64,000 nt of DNA, taken from Qingshengfaniella alkalisoli. GTDB lineage: Bacteria > Pseudomonadota > Alphaproteobacteria > Rhodobacterales > Rhodobacteraceae. The first letter of the stretch is position 1, and every line of letters starts with the position of its first letter. Shown here piece after piece: positions 48,630-57,621 of this stretch. The position numbers and the translations under genes were made by a program. Location of the stretch: the NCBI RefSeq assembly GCF_007855645.1, contig NZ_CP042261.1, positions 1,693,501 to 1,757,500 of the forward strand. The letters are read 5' to 3'. The notes under the pieces are model-generated. The model saw only the letters and a list, made by a program, of their open reading frames with translations. It was not told the DNA's origin and ran no database searches.

Positions 48630-49361
48630 CTAGCCCTCGGCCCTGTGGTGATGATCGTGATGGTGGCTATGTTCGTGGCGGTAGAGCGCCAAGGCCCCTT
48701 GCGTACCGGAACCGAACAAAGCGCGGTATTCCGGCGCGGATGCCACGACCTCCGGTGTACCGTGACAGCAGACATGTCCGTTCAGGCAGATGACACGATC
48801 CGACGCGCTCATGACCACGTGCAACTCGTGGCTGACCATGATGACAGCGCATCCGCGGCGCGTGCGCAAATCTTCGATCAACCGGTAAAAGGCCGCGGAG
48901 CCGGGCTGGTCCAGCCCTTGTGTCGGCTCATCCAGCAACAACAAATCCGGGTCGCTCAACAACGCCCGCGCCAATAAGACACGTTGCAATTGACCGCCAC
49001 TGAGCGATGACATCTGACGGGATTGCAGCCCCCCCGCTCCGGCCTCCACCAAGGCGTGGGAGATGTCATCGGACCCCGCCCGCACCGGCAGTCGCATGAA
49101 GCGCTTCACCGTCATCGGTAATGTCGGGTCGATATGCAGTTTCTGCGGCACATAGCCCAAGCGAAGCCCGTCCCGACGCACGAGCCGACCGGCGGACAGG
49201 GATTGGGCACCAATCAGGCTTCGCAGGAATGTCGATTTGCCTGACCCGTTGGGGCCCACGACCGTGACAATCTCGCCGCGATCAATCGAGAAATCGACGT
49301 CATGCAGGACCGTGTTTTCGCCATGACGCACGGCGAGCCCTTGAGTTGTCAGAAGGCTCAT
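48630..49361 (-). CDS. znuC: Zinc ABC transporter ATPase ZnuC
   Basis: This 243-residue ATPase powers zinc import. It shows Walker A VGPNGSGKST, signature LSGGQLQRV and Walker B LLLLDEPTQGLD. A histidine-rich C terminus (HEHSHHHDHHHRAEG) may bind zinc and is a feature of some ZnuC proteins. The start at 49361 overlaps the zur stop (ATGA), so zinc import is cotranslated with its own regulator. A reading to 49391 adds a basic tail inside zur. Confidence 0.95.
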   Translation of the reverse strand: MSLLTTQGLAVRHGENTVLHDVDFSIDRGEIVTVVGPNGSGKSTFLRSLIGAQSLSAGRLVRRDGLRLGYVPQKLHIDPTLPMTVKRFMRLPVRAGSDDISHALVEAGAGGLQSRQMSSLSGGQLQRVLLARALLSDPDLLLLDEPTQGLDQPGSAAFYRLIEDLRTRRGCAVIMVSHELHVVMSASDRVICLNGHVCCHGTPEVVASAPEYRALFGSGTQGALALYRHEHSHHHDHHHRAEG

Positions 49362-49840
49362 TGACGCTGATCTCCGGCGCAGGCCGGGCAAAGCCCTTCA
49401 ACTTCTATGACGGCCCGCTCGACCGAGAAGCCCGTTGTTTCAACTTCCGCGCCCAGTATTGACAGGGCATCTGGCCGACACGCTTCGGCCACGCCACTGC
49501 AAAGACGACAGATCAGGAACACGGGCGCGTGGTGCTCACCGGGATGGGTGCAGGCTACAAATGCATTCAGACGTTCGATCTTGTGAACAAAACGATGCTT
49601 CATCAGAAAGTCCAAGGCGCGATAGGCGACAGGGGGCTGCGAGCCCAGCCCCTCTTCCTTTAAAACGTCAAGTATCTCATAGGCACCCATTGCGCGATGG
49701 CCTTCCAGCAGCAAGCGGTAGACACGCTGGCGCACGGGCGTGAACTGCAACCCTTCGTCGGAGCAAATGGATCGCGCCGTTTCCAGACTGTCGGTAATGC
49801 AGCCCTGATGATCATGCTTGTGGAACCCTATGACATCCAT
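49358..49840 (-). CDS. zur: Zinc uptake regulator (Fur family)
   Basis: This 160-residue Fur-family repressor senses zinc and shuts off zinc uptake. The winged-helix part reads GLQFTPVRQRVYRLLLEGHR and YEILDVLKEEGLGSQPPVAYRALDFL. Zinc-site cysteines are in LICRLCSG and EGLCPACAGD, with the sensory histidines in CTHPGEHHAPVF. The start at 49840 has GAGG 6-7 bases upstream. It is divergent from znuA, with a palindrome resembling a Zur operator between them. Confidence 0.94.
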   Translation of the reverse strand: MDVIGFHKHDHQGCITDSLETARSICSDEGLQFTPVRQRVYRLLLEGHRAMGAYEILDVLKEEGLGSQPPVAYRALDFLMKHRFVHKIERLNAFVACTHPGEHHAPVFLICRLCSGVAEACRPDALSILGAEVETTGFSVERAVIEVEGLCPACAGDQRQ

Positions 49841-49907
49841 CGTGCGCCTCAACCTTATCAATTCAAGGGTTGCTATGTTATTTCATTCATCATATCAAGC
49901 CCAGAAA

Positions 49908-49922
49908 TGTTACAACATAACA
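49908..49922. promoter_or_regulatory. Zur operator-like palindrome between zur and znuA
   Basis: TGTTACAACATAACA (49908-49922) is nearly a perfect inverted repeat (GTTAcaacaTAAC core). It differs at two bases from the general alphaproteobacterial Zur consensus TGTTATAATATAACA as I recall it. It lies 12 bases before the znuA start and 68 bases before the zur start, so it could control both. Confidence 0.7.
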
Positions 49923-49933
49923 CGAGAACGCAC

Positions 49934-50872
49934 ATGCGACTTTCCGGAACTAGCTTCGCGGCGATGCTTGCCATCGCCGTCCCTGCATTTGCCGACGCCC
50001 CACAGATCGCAGTGGATATTCCTGCGGTTCATTCACTTGTTGCGCAGGTGACAGGAGACATTGCCACCCCGGCCCTCGTCATGCAGGCGGGAGCGTCACC
50101 GCACGGCTACTCGATGCGTCCATCGGAAGCACAGTCCCTCAGCGAGGCGGATGTAATCTTCTGGATCGGCGAAGCATTGGAGCCATGGCTCGCCGGAAGC
50201 ATCGGCAAGCTGGCCCCCGACGCCGTATCCGTCGAGTTGTTGGAAGCCGAAGGAACGACCACCTTCCCGTTCCGCGACAGCGCAATTCACGGTCATGAAG
50301 AACACGACCACGACGATCACGGGCACGACCACCACGGTCATGACCACGGCGACGGCGTGGATCCGCATGCGTGGCTTGACCCGGAAAACGCAGCCATTTG
50401 GCTCGACGTGATCGCCCGTGAGCTGGCCGAACTGGACCCGGACCGGGCAAACACTTACGCAAAGAATGCCGAAGCCGCCAAAGCAGATCTGGTTGTATTA
50501 AGGGAAGAACTCACTGCCCAGCTTGCACCAATTTCCGAGCAGCCCTTTGTCGTGTTCCACGATGCCTACCAGTATTTCGAACATCGGTTCGGCTTGACCT
50601 CGCTCGGAGCGATCAGCCTTGGCGACGCATCCGCCCCAAGCCCCGCGCGCATCGCGGAACTGCAACACGAAATAGAACATGAAGGCATCGTATGCGTCTT
50701 CAGCGAACCGCAGTTCAACGCGGGCCTCGTGGACGCGGTGACCGGAGGAACAGAGGTCGCCCACGGCGTGCTTGACCCGGTCGGCGCAGACATTCCAGCC
50801 AGCCAGGATTTCTACGCGACATTGTTGCGTGACATCGCAGCCAATGCAGTGGAATGTCTGGCGAAGGATTGA
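49934..50872 (+). CDS. znuA: Zinc ABC transporter substrate-binding protein ZnuA
   Basis: This 312-residue periplasmic protein captures zinc for ZnuBC. It has a signal peptide (about residues 1-21, ending AFADAP). Zinc ligand histidines are in PAVHSLVAQV, GVDPHAWLDPEN and VFHDAYQYFEHRFG. A histidine/aspartate-rich loop (HGHEEHDHDDHGHDHHGHDH) is the typical acidic zinc loop. The start at 49934 gives the normal length. A reading back to 49697 crosses the operator region and zur and is rejected. It is divergent from zur-znuC-znuB. Confidence 0.95.
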   Translation: MRLSGTSFAAMLAIAVPAFADAPQIAVDIPAVHSLVAQVTGDIATPALVMQAGASPHGYSMRPSEAQSLSEADVIFWIGEALEPWLAGSIGKLAPDAVSVELLEAEGTTTFPFRDSAIHGHEEHDHDDHGHDHHGHDHGDGVDPHAWLDPENAAIWLDVIARELAELDPDRANTYAKNAEAAKADLVVLREELTAQLAPISEQPFVVFHDAYQYFEHRFGLTSLGAISLGDASAPSPARIAELQHEIEHEGIVCVFSEPQFNAGLVDAVTGGTEVAHGVLDPVGADIPASQDFYATLLRDIAANAVECLAKD

Positions 50873-51901: not shown

Positions 51902-54031
51902 CTAGAGTCCTGCCTCGCGGACGAGAACCTTCAACACCTGCCGCCAAGCACGTTCAAGAAAGCTTTCAGGCTCTCCGGCTATGAGAAGCACCCCGCGTGT
52001 GACCCGCTGACTGTAGCGCACGTCACGAACAAGCGCCGACACGGCATACTGGCCACTGGTCGGGATCGGCCTGCCGGCCTCGGTCACCCCCTGGTCGGCG
52101 ATGCCCCCGCCGAAGCTGGCAGCCAATTCGGGAATATCTAGACCACGCACACTGTTGGCGGATACCGTCGTAAGCGTCGCCTCGACCTTGGGAAGAGCCA
52201 GATCATCTGGGATGAACTGGGCGACGGCCTCTTTGCTGACGCGGCCACGGTCGCGGGCCGCGAGATAGCCCCGGATGATCGTGCTATCGCCCGATGACAG
52301 CAGCGCAAGCTTGTGATCGCGACCGACCCATTGGCCCACGCTTAACGTCGGGTCCAAGTCAGAGACAACGGCATCTTGTGGTGCTCGCATGACCAGCGCC
52401 TGTTGCCTTTCATCAAACCCGTCGCGACGAGCGATGGCGCGACCACGTTCCCATGCCAGCACCTCGCGCCGCTGGCGATCTTCTGGGTTTGCACCGATTC
52501 TCGCGATTCGCGACTGCGCAAGATCCGCTTCCAAGGCGGCCAGATGACGCTCATTGGCCAACGACTCGGAAGTAATCGTGAACAGAACTTCTCCCTCAGC
52601 GACCCGTTGGCCGTTCTGGACATGTATATCATCTATACGACCTTCTTCGGGTGGGTACAGACGCGTGAAGTCCTCGGGGTAGGCCATGGCAGGTGCACGG
52701 ACGTGGGTGGACAGGGGAATGGCAGCCAAAGCGACAAGCCCTGCAAGAACCAAAAGGGTGATATAACTTCTTGCTGATGCCAAGATTTCCCCGCGCAGCT
52801 CCCACCATTTGCCTAACTCGTTGAAAACCGGCCGCACGATCAGCAAGCCGATCTCGATCAGGAACAGGATCACGCCCAGAACCTTGAAAGTGAAGTGATA
52901 GACCAACAACGCGATGCCAAGGAACAGAAAAAAACGATAGATAGCCGTTCCAATGGCGTAGAGTGTCAGCGTGACATCCAGTTTTCGCGGAAACGGTTCT
53001 GGTGGAGGGTGGCCGAGTCGAAACAGAAATTCGCGCAGCCGCCAGCGCATATGGCGAAACCCCCTCGTTTGGAGGTTCTCGATTCCGATGGCATCCGACA
53101 GCAGATAGTAACCGTCGAACCGCATGAAGGGATTGAGGTTCACCAACAAGCTTAGCAGCCAACTCGTCGCCGCCAATACGAACACCGCTGAGCGCGCCGG
53201 ACCATCGGGTAGAAACGCCCATAAAAACAAAGCGAAAGCGCCGACACACAGCTCCGTAGCAATCCCAGCCGCGTCGATGGCAAGCCGCCTGCGTCGGTCC
53301 TTCAATTTCCAGGCGTCGGTGACATCAGTGTAGAGCAACGGCATCATCACCATGAAGGCTACGCCCATCGTCGGAACGCGGCATCCGTAGCGATGCGCGG
53401 TGTAGGCATGGCCCATCTCGTGCAACGACTTCACCAGGGCAATGGACAACAGTGAGACCGCCGCGCCTTTGAACGAGAAGACAAAGGGAAAGGTGCCGAT
53501 AAAGTCTTCCCATTGCCGCGACACAAGGTAGAGACCCAACAGCCCCACCAGACAGCTGAACAACAAAAACCCGCGCGAAAACAGGGGCGCAACATAGGGC
53601 CACGTCACACGGATAAATCCGTCGGGTCGAACCAGCGGCACCTTGAAAAAAAGATACCCGTGCAACAATCGCGCCAGCCGCCCGTGCCTTGGTTTGCTTC
53701 TGTCCCGAATGCGCCGCCAACTGCCCGAAGTGGTCGTCGCTTGGAATGCGCTGGCTTCCAGCATCTGCGCAGCGTTTCGGATTTCAGCGTCATCAGGTAT
53801 CCGGCCAAAACGGCGCTCGACCGATGCCTTCAGCCCATGCGCGGTGCCCGATACATTCCAAAGCGACAGAATCTGGAACATCTCGTAGGTAACGCGGAAA
53901 AAGCGATTGCGCAGCGGATCATGCACAAGCCAGACCGGCGCACCCGAATAGCTTGGTCCACCGCGCAGGATTTGCAGGTCCTCCCGTAACGGAGGCAACT
54001 GGAAATCCGCAGATTCTACTGCCCCAGCCAT
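51902..54031 (-). CDS. Membrane zinc protease (M50) with PqqD/RRE-like N domain and HlyD-like C domain
   Basis: This 709-residue membrane protein has three parts. Residues 15-95 (PVWLVHDPLRNRFFRVTYEM, then helices to MLEASAF) resemble a PqqD/RiPP-recognition domain. Residues 150-440 form a multi-pass core with the zinc motif HEMGH (204-208) and the downstream ligand region NLNPFMRFDGYY (D306), as in M50 site-2 proteases. From 440 onward there is a lipoyl/HlyD-like segment (EEGRIDDIHVQNGQRVAEGE). It resembles putative peptide zinc metalloproteases of export clusters (YydH-like). It overlaps the preceding adaptor gene by 16 bases. The active-site residues are present. Confidence 0.87.
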   Translation of the reverse strand: MAGAVESADFQLPPLREDLQILRGGPSYSGAPVWLVHDPLRNRFFRVTYEMFQILSLWNVSGTAHGLKASVERRFGRIPDDAEIRNAAQMLEASAFQATTTSGSWRRIRDRSKPRHGRLARLLHGYLFFKVPLVRPDGFIRVTWPYVAPLFSRGFLLFSCLVGLLGLYLVSRQWEDFIGTFPFVFSFKGAAVSLLSIALVKSLHEMGHAYTAHRYGCRVPTMGVAFMVMMPLLYTDVTDAWKLKDRRRRLAIDAAGIATELCVGAFALFLWAFLPDGPARSAVFVLAATSWLLSLLVNLNPFMRFDGYYLLSDAIGIENLQTRGFRHMRWRLREFLFRLGHPPPEPFPRKLDVTLTLYAIGTAIYRFFLFLGIALLVYHFTFKVLGVILFLIEIGLLIVRPVFNELGKWWELRGEILASARSYITLLVLAGLVALAAIPLSTHVRAPAMAYPEDFTRLYPPEEGRIDDIHVQNGQRVAEGEVLFTITSESLANERHLAALEADLAQSRIARIGANPEDRQRREVLAWERGRAIARRDGFDERQQALVMRAPQDAVVSDLDPTLSVGQWVGRDHKLALLSSGDSTIIRGYLAARDRGRVSKEAVAQFIPDDLALPKVEATLTTVSANSVRGLDIPELAASFGGGIADQGVTEAGRPIPTSGQYAVSALVRDVRYSQRVTRGVLLIAGEPESFLERAWRQVLKVLVREAGL

Positions 54032-55404
54032 TGACGCGCGGCAGCCAGTGGTTTTCGGAAAAGATAGTAAGCCAGCGAAACCTGCTCGCCGTAGATTTGC
54101 GCCGTTCCACGCGTCCCGAGTTGCATCGGCGCGTGATCTTCCGAGAACCGGGCATAGATGCGATAGGCCATCACGTCTTCCTCGGTTCTCTGGGCCTCGA
54201 ACGATGCGGATATGACTGTCGCAGGCACAGGTTTGAGCGGGTCCGAATCTAGAAAGGCGCGCGCAGATGCCCCTTCGCGCATGACGATGGAGTCGGCTAC
54301 TGGCACATCGATGCGAAGTTGCACCCGCGTCGGATCTGCTATTTCCATGAGCCGCTCACCAACCTGCACGGGTCGCCCGATCCATTCACGGCGATCCCCG
54401 TAGATGACGACCCCAGCCGCCGGGGCCGCAACCACCGTACGGTTCAGCAACTCTTGCGCATAATCCCGGCGGGCCGTGGCAAGCGACAATTCCGTACGTG
54501 CCACCGCGAAGTCAGCCCGCGCCGAAGGATCGGTCACGGCGCTTTGGGCGATCCGCTTGAAATCGGCTTCGGCCACGCGAACTTCCTGCTCCGCGACGGC
54601 AAGATCATTGCGCAGAGTGGTATCCGACATACGAAATAGCTCGTCTTCTGCGGCCACTTCGGCATTGGGATCGACCGCAATGCTGTCGATAGTCCCGTCC
54701 AGAGGTGCCGCTATAATGCGCGGCTCGACCGACACCACCTGTGCAGGCGCGAGGACCGTCAGCGGAACAGGGACAAACCCCGCCGCAACCAGACATATCA
54801 CCAGGGCTGCAAGCACCGGCCCGATACGGACACGCCGCTTCAGCCGACGCTTGCCCGCCATCGCCGCCCAGCAATACCCGCCAGTCTCCGCAACACGTTC
54901 AGACACAAGCACATCGGAGTCCGACCAGGGTCGTTCCCGCGCGAGCAGCAGCCCGCCGAAAACATGCCCCCCAGGTAGGATAAACGGCACCCAGAGCATG
55001 AACGGATAAGGAAAGCTATCGGAATGCTCGCCTTCCGGTGGGGCGTAGGCCGGTAGTCGGAAATCGCGCCGCGCCTGTAACCCCGCATCTTCGGCCAAGC
55101 CACCAATCACAGCCTCGATCCATCGGATGCGCGGAGCGTTGCGTTCTACGACACCGATGCCTGTGACCGCCTCCACGCGCCGGCGGCGACCCTTCACCGA
55201 CACGACAAACACCTGGCTTGCGCGCGACAGCACTGGCGTTTCGTTGGCGAGAACGAATTTCAGCTCCTGCACGCTTTCGACCTGGCGCAGCTCGCTTTCG
55301 ATCCTGAGAAGAAGCTCGACCGCGTTTGGCTTTCGGGCGTCCGCCCGCGGTACGGTGCGGTCTCGAGACGCCTTGGATGAGATGGGCTGCCCGCTAACCA
55401 TCAT
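54016..55404 (-). CDS. GAF-like/HlyD-family membrane fusion protein
   Basis: This 462-residue protein has an N-terminal soluble domain (about 30-180, VELLLRIESELRQVESVQEL, then WVPFILPGGHVFGGLLLARE) that reads like a degenerate GAF domain. One membrane helix (195-215) follows, then a periplasmic adaptor part (from about 215). That part has the lipoyl half-motifs PLDGTIDSIAVDPNAEVAAE and APAAGVVIYGDRREWIG, joined by a coiled coil. Such adaptors connect an inner-membrane pump to a TolC channel. It is embedded between the M50 gene and a second HlyD gene with short overlaps on both sides. Confidence 0.84.
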   Translation of the reverse strand: MMVSGQPISSKASRDRTVPRADARKPNAVELLLRIESELRQVESVQELKFVLANETPVLSRASQVFVVSVKGRRRRVEAVTGIGVVERNAPRIRWIEAVIGGLAEDAGLQARRDFRLPAYAPPEGEHSDSFPYPFMLWVPFILPGGHVFGGLLLARERPWSDSDVLVSERVAETGGYCWAAMAGKRRLKRRVRIGPVLAALVICLVAAGFVPVPLTVLAPAQVVSVEPRIIAAPLDGTIDSIAVDPNAEVAAEDELFRMSDTTLRNDLAVAEQEVRVAEADFKRIAQSAVTDPSARADFAVARTELSLATARRDYAQELLNRTVVAAPAAGVVIYGDRREWIGRPVQVGERLMEIADPTRVQLRIDVPVADSIVMREGASARAFLDSDPLKPVPATVISASFEAQRTEEDVMAYRIYARFSEDHAPMQLGTRGTAQIYGEQVSLAYYLFRKPLAAARQWLGQ

Positions 55405-56140
55405 TCCCGCCCGGCTGCTCGAAGCGAACAGGCCCGCTCATCCCGGGCAGGACATTCTCAGCCGGACCGGAAAATTGCCCGATAACCTTCACAGTTTGGC
55501 TGACGGCATCGACCTGCGGCACGATACGTATGATACGCGCTGCCAACTCCTGCCCTGTCTCGTCAATCGCGATGTCGAATTCAGCCCCCGGAGACAGCCA
55601 GCGCAACCAGTCAGACGGCACAAGCAGGTCGATTTCCAAATCGTTCGTATCGACGATTTCGATGAAGGGCTCTGATGGATTTGCCAACTCAAATGCGTTC
55701 GCATAGACGGCAGCGACAGTGCCATCAAACGGCGCCTCAATTTCACAACGATCAAGGCGCGAGTGGATCGCCTCCACCTGTGCTGTGGACTGCGCCACTT
55801 TTGCTTCGGACAATCGAACTTCGAAAGTGCCCGTTGCATTCAACTCAGCCAGTCTTGCGTTGTTTGCGCGGGTCAACTCTTCCTGCTGCATCAGCGCTTC
55901 CGCAGCGCGCAACTCCGCCTCCAGATCGCGGCAGTCGAATGCCGCCAGCACATCGCCTTTCTTGAAGCGATCTCCTTCTCGAAACGGTAATCGCGACAGG
56001 ACGAACCCCAGATCATTCCCGATCTCTGCCCGCTGGACGGCACGCACGATCCCGCGATGTGCCGGATCCACGGGCTGTGCAGGCACCGCAGTTGCGGCAC
56101 AGATCAAAAGAACGCTGCCCGCCCAAAGGTTACGTGTCAT
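55394..56140 (-). CDS. HlyD/RND-type periplasmic adaptor protein
   Basis: This 248-residue exported adaptor has a signal peptide (about 1-20, ending AVPAQPV). A lipoyl domain is split by a helical hairpin (RGIVRAVQRAEIGNDLG, FREGDRFKKGDVLAAFDCRD and the return half IEAPFDGTVAAVYANAFE), and a beta-barrel region follows. It is shorter than most RND adaptors. The start at 56140 gives a clear signal peptide; a reading to 56215 is not supported. It follows the TolC-like gene after 23 bases and overlaps the GAF-like/HlyD gene by 11 bases. Confidence 0.87.
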   Translation of the reverse strand: MTRNLWAGSVLLICAATAVPAQPVDPAHRGIVRAVQRAEIGNDLGFVLSRLPFREGDRFKKGDVLAAFDCRDLEAELRAAEALMQQEELTRANNARLAELNATGTFEVRLSEAKVAQSTAQVEAIHSRLDRCEIEAPFDGTVAAVYANAFELANPSEPFIEIVDTNDLEIDLLVPSDWLRWLSPGAEFDIAIDETGQELAARIIRIVPQVDAVSQTVKVIGQFSGPAENVLPGMSGPVRFEQPGGNDG

Positions 56141-56163
56141 GACGGCCGTTTCGGCACCTCGCG

Positions 56164-57621
56164 TCAATTCGCGGCGGCAACCGTCTGAGTGGGCGCACTG
56201 CCGCGACCTTCCCACATGTTCTGCAGCTGGGCCGCGACCGTCTGAACATTGTCTTCAAGGCTCAAACCGCGCGGAAATGGATCTATCCCCAGCGACGCAT
56301 ACACATTCGCATAGGCATTTTGCAGGTCGGCATAGGCCATGTCCAGTTCCGCATCCGCGACAAGCGCATTCATTTCCTCGCGGATCAGCACCTGCTCACT
56401 GGTTCGGTCGGCAGAGGCTTCGGCCTCTACCTGATCCAGAATGCGGTGAGACACATTCGAAAGCGACGCAGCGGTCTGGTAGGAGGAATTGAGATGGCCA
56501 TAACGCAAGCGGCTGATCTGCACCTGCGTCATGATCGCCATCGCAACTGACAGGGACCGCGCATCCAGCGCTGCGGCTTCCGCATCCACACGGCGGCGAT
56601 TGGCGGGACCGCGCGCGACATCCAGCAGGTTCCAACTGACCTGTGCGCCCCAGCTGACCCAGTCATTGGCGTCGATGAATTCGTTGGAATCGTAATTGCT
56701 GCCCGCATAAAGGTTGATCCCCGGCAGCATGTCCAGCAGCGCGGCATCGACCTCTTTTTCGTTGATACGCATCTGGTAAGCAACTTCGCGCATCTCGGGA
56801 CGGTTGGTCACGGCGATCTGGTACATCTGCGATAGATCATTCGGCACACCCAGCTTGGTGCCGCCCCGCGGCGGGGGGCTGAGCGTGAAATTCGTGCCCG
56901 GGCGTACATTCATCAGCGCGGCAAGCTGGCTTTGCGCGACCTGCAATTCGCCTTCCATGCGTTCGATGTCACGGCGGATCTCGATCAGCTCGCGCTCATA
57001 AGTCAGCGCCAGAAGCGCCGAGGTCTCGCCGCTTTCGGAAAGCTGGCGTGTATCACGCAGGGCCTTGTCGATACGCCCTTCAAGCCCGCGCATCCGACCG
57101 ATCAGGCGTTGGTAGCTGACCGCCCGCCAGTAAGACGTCCGCACGTCTTCAATCGTCCTATTGACGATCTTGCGTTTCATTTCCTCCTGCATCAGCGCCT
57201 TGTCGGACGCCTGCTTGGCACGGACATAGGACAGGCCGAAATCCAGAATATTCCATGAAAATTCCAGGCTCGCATCGACCACATCGTCATCCGCGGTCGT
57301 GACCGAGCTGACATCAGTATTGTCGCGCCCGGCATACCCCGTGCTGGCCACGAGATTGGGCAGCATGTCATAGCTGGCCAGATCGCGCTCGCGCACACGC
57401 AGGGCGGCTTCCATCAGCTCAACCCGCGTATCGAGGTTGTATTTCAACGCCCGCGCCATGGCCTCGTAAAGCGTGATCGACCCAGTGATCGGCTCCTGGT
57501 TCGCCGTTGCGCGCGTGACGCGTTCAACCCCGAATACACGGTTCTCGTCCTGCGTGAACGGATTGCTCGATACCGTGCAACCCGCGCAGAAAATGGCCAC
57601 AGATACAGCCGCAAATTTCAC
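56164..57621 (-). CDS. TolC-family outer-membrane factor, lipoprotein type
   Basis: This 485-residue outer-membrane channel protein begins with GTG and a lipoprotein signal (lipobox CAGC, Cys about residue 15). The body shows two repeated OEP halves with long helices (RVELMEAALRVRERDLASYD, AYQMRINEKEVDAALLDMLP) and the typical NLYAGSNYDSNEF-type strand region. It would form the exit duct of the export cluster. GAGGG lies 8 bases before the start codon. It is first in a four-gene minus-strand operon running down to 51902. Confidence 0.9.
   Translation of the reverse strand: MKFAAVSVAIFCAGCTVSSNPFTQDENRVFGVERVTRATANQEPITGSITLYEAMARALKYNLDTRVELMEAALRVRERDLASYDMLPNLVASTGYAGRDNTDVSSVTTADDDVVDASLEFSWNILDFGLSYVRAKQASDKALMQEEMKRKIVNRTIEDVRTSYWRAVSYQRLIGRMRGLEGRIDKALRDTRQLSESGETSALLALTYERELIEIRRDIERMEGELQVAQSQLAALMNVRPGTNFTLSPPPRGGTKLGVPNDLSQMYQIAVTNRPEMREVAYQMRINEKEVDAALLDMLPGINLYAGSNYDSNEFIDANDWVSWGAQVSWNLLDVARGPANRRRVDAEAAALDARSLSVAMAIMTQVQISRLRYGHLNSSYQTAASLSNVSHRILDQVEAEASADRTSEQVLIREEMNALVADAELDMAYADLQNAYANVYASLGIDPFPRGLSLEDNVQTVAAQLQNMWEGRGSAPTQTVAAAN

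Follow-up and report, generated by a model that had tools for sequence, protein, structure and literature searches.

A putative pump-less HlyD/TolC cluster with an RRE-like M50 protease and its pairing with leader-bearing giant repeat proteins

The described systems that come closest to the locus analyzed here are the type 1 secretion systems (T1SS) for giant adhesins, i.e., LapEBC with its substrate LapA and SiiCDF with SiiE, in which a HlyD adaptor and a TolC channel serve a very large, repeat-built surface cargo. The locus is a cluster of four genes encoding a TolC-type channel, a HlyD-type adaptor, a GAF-like/HlyD fusion protein and a site-2-type M50 protease, located in a window of 64,000 nucleotides from Qingshengfaniella alkalisoli (contig NZ_CP042261.1, positions 1,693,501 to 1,757,500; the window denotes this whole stretch). 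In contrast to the T1SS for giant adhesins, the cluster has no linked ABC transporter, its adaptor parts are fused to an RRE-M50 protein and to a GAF-like domain, and the putative cargo carries a conserved N-terminal leader. From the tripartite efflux systems of the RND, MFS and ABC types it differs in being without an inner-membrane pump gene. The daptide protease MpaP is similar in that an RRE is N-terminally fused to an M50 intramembrane protease and in that the leader contains an L-E-x motif; it was reported that an RRE-fused site-2 protease removes daptide leaders with the motif ELExMEAP (PMC10036551). However, the M50 protein of the cluster has an extra HlyD arm and stays under the cut-off of the daptide protease model NF041824, TolC and HlyD genes are linked to it, modifying enzymes are absent and the cargo comprises thousands of residues. 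EpeP, YydH and LiaK are likewise M50 enzymes thought to cleave and export their substrate, as postulated for EpeP and the epipeptide (PMC10885120), but they act on short peptides in Gram-positive hosts and without HlyD or TolC. On the cargo side, the giants of the LEPR-XLL family (NF012209) have a leader of the same shape near the N-terminus; giants of a sister branch of the system described below score above the cut-off of this model, whereas the cargo assigned to the window's system shows the FDAA form and does not reach it. The accessory SecA (SecA2) pathways are comparable in that the giant gene of the sister branch is adjoined by an additional, shorter SecA; they differ in that SecA stands here with TolC/HlyD and M50 genes and in that the window's branch has no second SecA. 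To our knowledge, the SecA2 systems described so far are Gram-positive or mycobacterial. Work on S-layer proteins (PMC13274458), on BapP (PMC12153261) and on polymorphic toxins (PMC3482391) deals with ABC-type or other systems. No description of the present system was found in the literature and databases searched, with bioRxiv and most subscription papers lying outside the coverage, and in this literature LEPR-XLL is mentioned only in passing.

With a probability of roughly 0.7, the cluster constitutes the envelope part of a dedicated system that processes giant surface proteins under the guidance of a leader and exports them via HlyD/TolC without a dedicated ABC pump. All four open reading frames (ORFs) share the minus strand, TolC being followed by HlyD, GAF/HlyD and M50 (Table 1). 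In the original prediction, made from the sequence of the window, the genes were described as running in one strand with short overlaps or a 23-base gap. This holds true: two of the joints are overlaps of 11 and 16 bases, and the gap of 23 bases to TolC arises if HlyD starts at an internal ATG at position 56140 (MTRNLWAGSV...), while the HlyD ORF as listed (55394-56215, GTG start) overlaps the TolC gene. The TolC ORF has a lipoprotein-like N-terminus (MKFAAVSVAIFCAGC) and a subthreshold match to TIGR01844. Both adaptors are recognized by the Pfam families HlyD_3/HlyD_D23; the separate HlyD adaptor has a hydrophobic N-terminal signal and lies above the cut-off of the RND_mfp model. The proposed GAF-like/HlyD fusion was borne out in its HlyD part. 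An AlphaFold2 (AF2) model of this protein (pLDDT 91) shows a separate alpha/beta domain (residues 28-183), a transmembrane (TM) helix (~195-208) and a MacA/AcrA-like C-terminal part; the assignment of the alpha/beta domain as GAF is weakly supported, as one of 43 members matches GAF_2 (0.006). In fold searches, matches to membrane fusion proteins (MFPs) predominated and the RRE and GAF parts were not reached.

With the M50 protein as query, 84,980 species genomes were scanned and 80 relatives kept, and all ORFs of these loci were clustered together with those of the window (81 loci, some of which are cut by contig ends). The hosts include Rhizobiales, Rhodobacterales, Azospirillum, Variovorax, Nitrosomonas, Methylomonas, Nitrospira and others, and the loci thus span Alphaproteobacteria, Betaproteobacteria, Gammaproteobacteria and Nitrospira. 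The family of the M50/GAF-HlyD pair is present in 81/81 loci; it is accompanied by HlyD in 74 of them and by TolC in 63, and gene order and strand are mostly preserved. The gene order is therefore not due to chance and the four genes form one co-conserved unit. Neither among the four genes nor among the conserved neighbors of the 81 loci was an ABC, RND or MFS pump gene detected, in line with the earlier statement that none of the four is a pump. With three type 1 ABC exporters encoded in the window's genome as probes, a full-length ABC exporter was found within ~10 kb of the locus in one of the 81 cases (L008). A neighborhood comparison had been proposed in the original prediction, for which a linked ABC or RND pump or a lack of co-conservation would have spoken against an export unit built around the protease; neither was seen. 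Beyond the core, the conserved clusters consist of a giant gene and generic neighbors, and no RiPP (ribosomally synthesized and post-translationally modified peptide) modifying enzyme is conserved in the 81 loci, precursor genes <80 aa not having been searched systematically.

The commonest neighbor after the core is a gene encoding a repeat protein of great length, assigned by clustering in 47 + 12 loci and present in further, unclustered form in others. These giants are cadherin/Ig-repeat proteins and adjoin the cluster in most loci. In Rhizobiales their genes diverge from TolC, in Azospirillum and Variovorax they stand upstream, and in Nitrospira they are found downstream of M50. The visible N-termini that were examined have in common a leader L-E-x-R-x-x-F-D-(A/G), as exemplified by a Rhizobium giant (MLMELEQRIAFDAAG) and a Nitrospira giant (LLSLESRLMFDAAA); the form L-E-x-R-x-x-F-D-A lies ~20-115 residues from the start of the giant ORF. 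With a maximum mean hydropathy of 1.1-1.9, the leader does not qualify as a typical Sec signal; values of 2.6-2.8 were obtained for the signals on TolC and HlyD in this cluster. The giants furthermore share a C-terminal domain and tail, the region in which a T1SS cargo would carry its secretion signal. Directly after the leader, giants of the window's branch (residues ~98-252 in those of L084/L085) have a DUF4347 domain in which HxxSHG is kept and YGC[DN] is present in most; this hints at a self-processing peptidase of the caspase-like type (clan CD).

As the window has no giant gene, the leader motif was sought in the rest of the genome. This search gave a single match, on contig C4, compared to none for the reversed control motif, and the match opens an ORF of 5,149 residues (C4:158461-173907, minus strand) with the leader LEQRIAFDAA, a DUF4347 domain (7.8e-48), many cadherin/Big repeats and a C-terminal domain. 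The leader has the shape of LEPR-XLL although that model does not match the protein. A C-terminal profile built from all giants was too gappy and gave no match, but one built from seven cluster-linked giants of other genomes, with the own-genome protein excluded, finds the domain at residues 4884-5141 (E=3.5e-19). Leader and C-terminal domain independently tie this unlinked giant to the system, and the 5,149-residue protein is the predicted cargo of the window's cluster. It had been supposed that the cargo is encoded outside the window, which agrees with this candidate; the assumed peptide nature of the cargo is not supported, as the cargo gene adjoining the relatives' clusters encodes a giant repeat protein. 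Near the giant gene on the same contig, genes for a response regulator and a sensor kinase are found (C4:151811-154419), which are possible regulators.

The pairing was also followed in a sample of 200 genomes of the same family, in which close M50 relatives are restricted to four genomes, one of them having two. The strict leader pattern is matched in 14 of the 200, and the window's genome, G047 and G058 are the only ones in which a long open ORF has the motif at its start. The fourth system-positive genome, G001, has the FDG form of the leader in an ORF of 4,113 residues that adjoins its cluster and overlaps the start-extended TolC ORF. A leader-bearing giant is thus present in 4/4 system-positive family genomes, while in the other 196, in which the search was for the FDA form and not for FDG, no giant with this leader was found. 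Outside the family sample the leader is present in 29 of 34 system-positive genomes, FDG form counted. G058 encodes two complete systems of the window's branch on different contigs, each adjoining a giant gene of its own.

The M50 protein is, judged from its domain make-up, composed of an RRE-like domain predicted to bind the leader, an intact HExxH intramembrane protease and a HlyD arm; the N-terminal domain was not part of the original prediction, which had already recognized the arm. Neither the HExxH nor the second motif, NPFMRFDGYY, is disrupted, both lie in TM segments, and H204, E205, H208 and D306 are unchanged in an alignment of 48 relatives. The HExxH is also kept in the full-length M50 proteins of the sister branch that were checked, and the HlyD arm was found in 48/48 members scanned. 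In an AF2 model (pLDDT 88.5), a beta-beta-beta-alpha-alpha-alpha domain at the N-terminus is followed by the membrane protease and the MFP arm. The best solved relative of the N-terminal profile is the lasso-peptide RRE TbiB1 (5v1u/5v1v, E=0.0024), with PqqD 3g2b also among the matches (E=0.32), and Pfam PqqD itself is matched by sister-branch members (up to 4e-9). The daptide RRE-protease model NF041824 spans residues 34-398, i.e., RRE and M50 together (E=8.9e-48), with a score below its curated cut-off (163.3 versus 300 bits); the match to the epipeptide protease model NF058609 is weak (1.6e-5). That the M50 protein acts as the inner-membrane component, as had been proposed, is likely. A further frame of 559 aa in the window's genome (G000:C1:2162774-2163445) has a HlyD part resembling the arm (81 bits).

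A second group of M50-HlyD proteins (~120-340 bits), the sister branch, is present in ~24 further genomes of the family sample and adjoins GAF/HlyD-type proteins and even larger giants. The N-termini of these giants are exemplified by TLEPRLLLSGDP, and an N-terminus of this kind scores above the cut-off of the NCBIfam model LEPR-8K. Strong LEPR-8K matches were obtained in 20 of 28 M50-positive genomes versus one of the 172 others (Fisher p=3.9e-20). The matched ORFs mostly share a contig with the M50 gene and are up to 17,824 residues long. Most of the sister clusters examined encode a short SecA paralogue of ~660-700 residues with SecA_DEAD, SecA_PP_bind and P-loop_SecA domains. Genomes of the window's branch mostly possess the housekeeping SecA alone, with one SecA each in G000 (the window's genome), G047 and G058. 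The longest ORF is a single open frame in G065 (C4:103221 onward; L158, L139) with the LEPR-XLL leader at its start, located directly upstream of an M50-type cluster. The sole genome of the sample with a strong LEPR-8K match and no M50 relative is a fragmented assembly (G118:C186:29179-29244).

Taken together, a mechanism can be proposed in which the newly made giant cargo starts with a leader that is not hydrophobic and includes the motif L-E-x-R-x-x-F-D-(A/G). At the inner membrane, the RRE-like domain of the M50 protein would bind to this leader, which would then be removed by the HExxH site in the manner of the RRE-site-2 proteases of daptide maturation. The connection to TolC would be made by the separate HlyD and by the HlyD arms present on the M50 protein and on the GAF-HlyD protein, and the repeat chain would leave the cell to act as adhesin or matrix protein. 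As inner-membrane drive SecA/SecYEG is favored in view of the SecA that the sister branch encodes itself; in the window's genome this would be the housekeeping SecA.

Several observations weigh against leader-guided export of giants by the cluster. In the window's genome the giant is unlinked to the four genes, so that the pairing there depends on three features, namely leader, C-terminal domain and co-occurrence, and five of the 34 system-positive genomes outside the family sample gave no leader, several of these being MAG-like (metagenome-assembled genome) or without a visible giant. The window's M50 protein does not match Pfam PqqD, and in members of its branch the RRE is called from the profile match at E=0.0024 together with the fold topology. 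The likeness between giant and daptide leaders was judged by eye. Finally, the window's genome encodes three LssB-type T1SS ABC exporters elsewhere, which makes an ABC exporter acting in trans the main rival. The cluster would then be a variant T1SS with HlyD/TolC served by this exporter and with the M50 protein as mere leader peptidase or quality-control protease for a giant adhesin. T1SS are known to secrete giant adhesins of the RTX/Bap type, among them LapA and SiiE (PMC12153261), and epipeptide production was not abolished when EpeP was deleted, indicating that other exporters can help (PMC10885120). However, 80 of the 81 loci have no linked ABC exporter although the cargo is usually linked, the HlyD arm kept in every M50 member scanned would be superfluous for a mere peptidase, and the sister cluster holds a SecA instead of an ABC protein. 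In G001 and G058 no ABC protein reaches the LssB cut-off, though other ABC exporters exist; a genome-wide exclusion by TIGR03375 is not decisive because every genome has ABC exporters. We consider the variant T1SS unlikely.

Far less probable are two readings in which giant proteins are not the cargo. The RRE-M50 part is closest to the proteases for daptides and epipeptides, whose substrates are short peptides, and the M50 protein might cut a short RiPP-like precursor with the product leaving via HlyD/TolC; the missing conserved modifying enzyme (peptide genes <80 aa not systematically searched) and a genome-wide co-occurrence that is with giant proteins leave very little room for such a route. 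The four genes by themselves resemble efflux components, and the separate contig of the giant in the window's genome would fit an efflux or stress adaptor cluster that adjoins giants elsewhere merely as part of a common horizontally moved island. This is similarly improbable, since two differently built M50 branches both adjoin leader-bearing giants, upstream, downstream or divergent, and the pairing of system and giant persists where they are unlinked. For leader-guided export of giants as described above, a further step is conceivable that we regard as tentative, with odds a little short of even: the cluster may represent a secretion system of a separate class, with an RRE-site-2-protease-HlyD fusion in the place of the ABC pump and with a SecA/SecYEG-driven, leader-guided route by which proteins 3,000 to 18,000 residues long would pass through TolC, one branch using the housekeeping SecA and the sister branch its own. 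All parts belong to known families, and what appears new is their combination and the pairing with leader-bearing giants, the function being a prediction. We know of no export route assigned to the largest bacterial proteins. If the proposed function is true, the LEPR-XLL and LExRxxFDAA giants (ORFs of up to 17,824 residues) would be linked to a machine with a readable N-terminal address, a pump-less use of HlyD and TolC would be added, RiPP leader recognition would extend from short peptides to giant proteins, and a job would be suggested for a second SecA in Gram-negative bacteria.

Table 1. Features of the four-gene cluster (positions in the window) and short SecA genes of the sister branch (positions in the respective loci).
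Feature	Position	Strand	Remarks
TolC-type outer-membrane channel	56164..57621	minus	485 aa ORF, GTG start; Pfam OEP E=2.6e-37, two stretches
HlyD/RND-type periplasmic adaptor	55394..56140	minus	~248 aa from internal ATG; HlyD_3 1e-16, HlyD_D23 6.4e-14
GAF-like domain - TM helix - HlyD adaptor fusion (GAF weakly supported)	54016..55404	minus	462 aa; HlyD_3 4.6e-16
M50 site-2-type protease with N-terminal RRE (PqqD-like) domain and C-terminal HlyD arm	51902..54031	minus	709 aa; Peptidase_M50 5.7e-7, HlyD_3 6.7e-11
RRE/PqqD-like winged-helix domain in M50 protein, proposed leader-binding site	53750..53974	minus	residues ~20-94; model topology and profile matches
HExxH zinc site H204-E205-M-G-H208 of M50 protein	53408..53422	minus	invariant in 48 aligned relatives
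Second short SecA (~660 aa, no SecA_SW match) beside giants and M50	L138:16535-18562, L145:10990-13047, L146:3991-5973, L149:4859-6781		same-family genomes

Within the window, an ABC ATPase gene (48630-49391) lies close to the cluster. It stands near genes for a Fur-type regulator and a metal-binding protein in an arrangement like that of a zinc-uptake operon and was judged to be unrelated to the cluster. The proximity of these zinc-uptake-like genes (48630-50872), including that of the His-rich metal-binding protein, to a metalloprotease cluster was judged coincidental.

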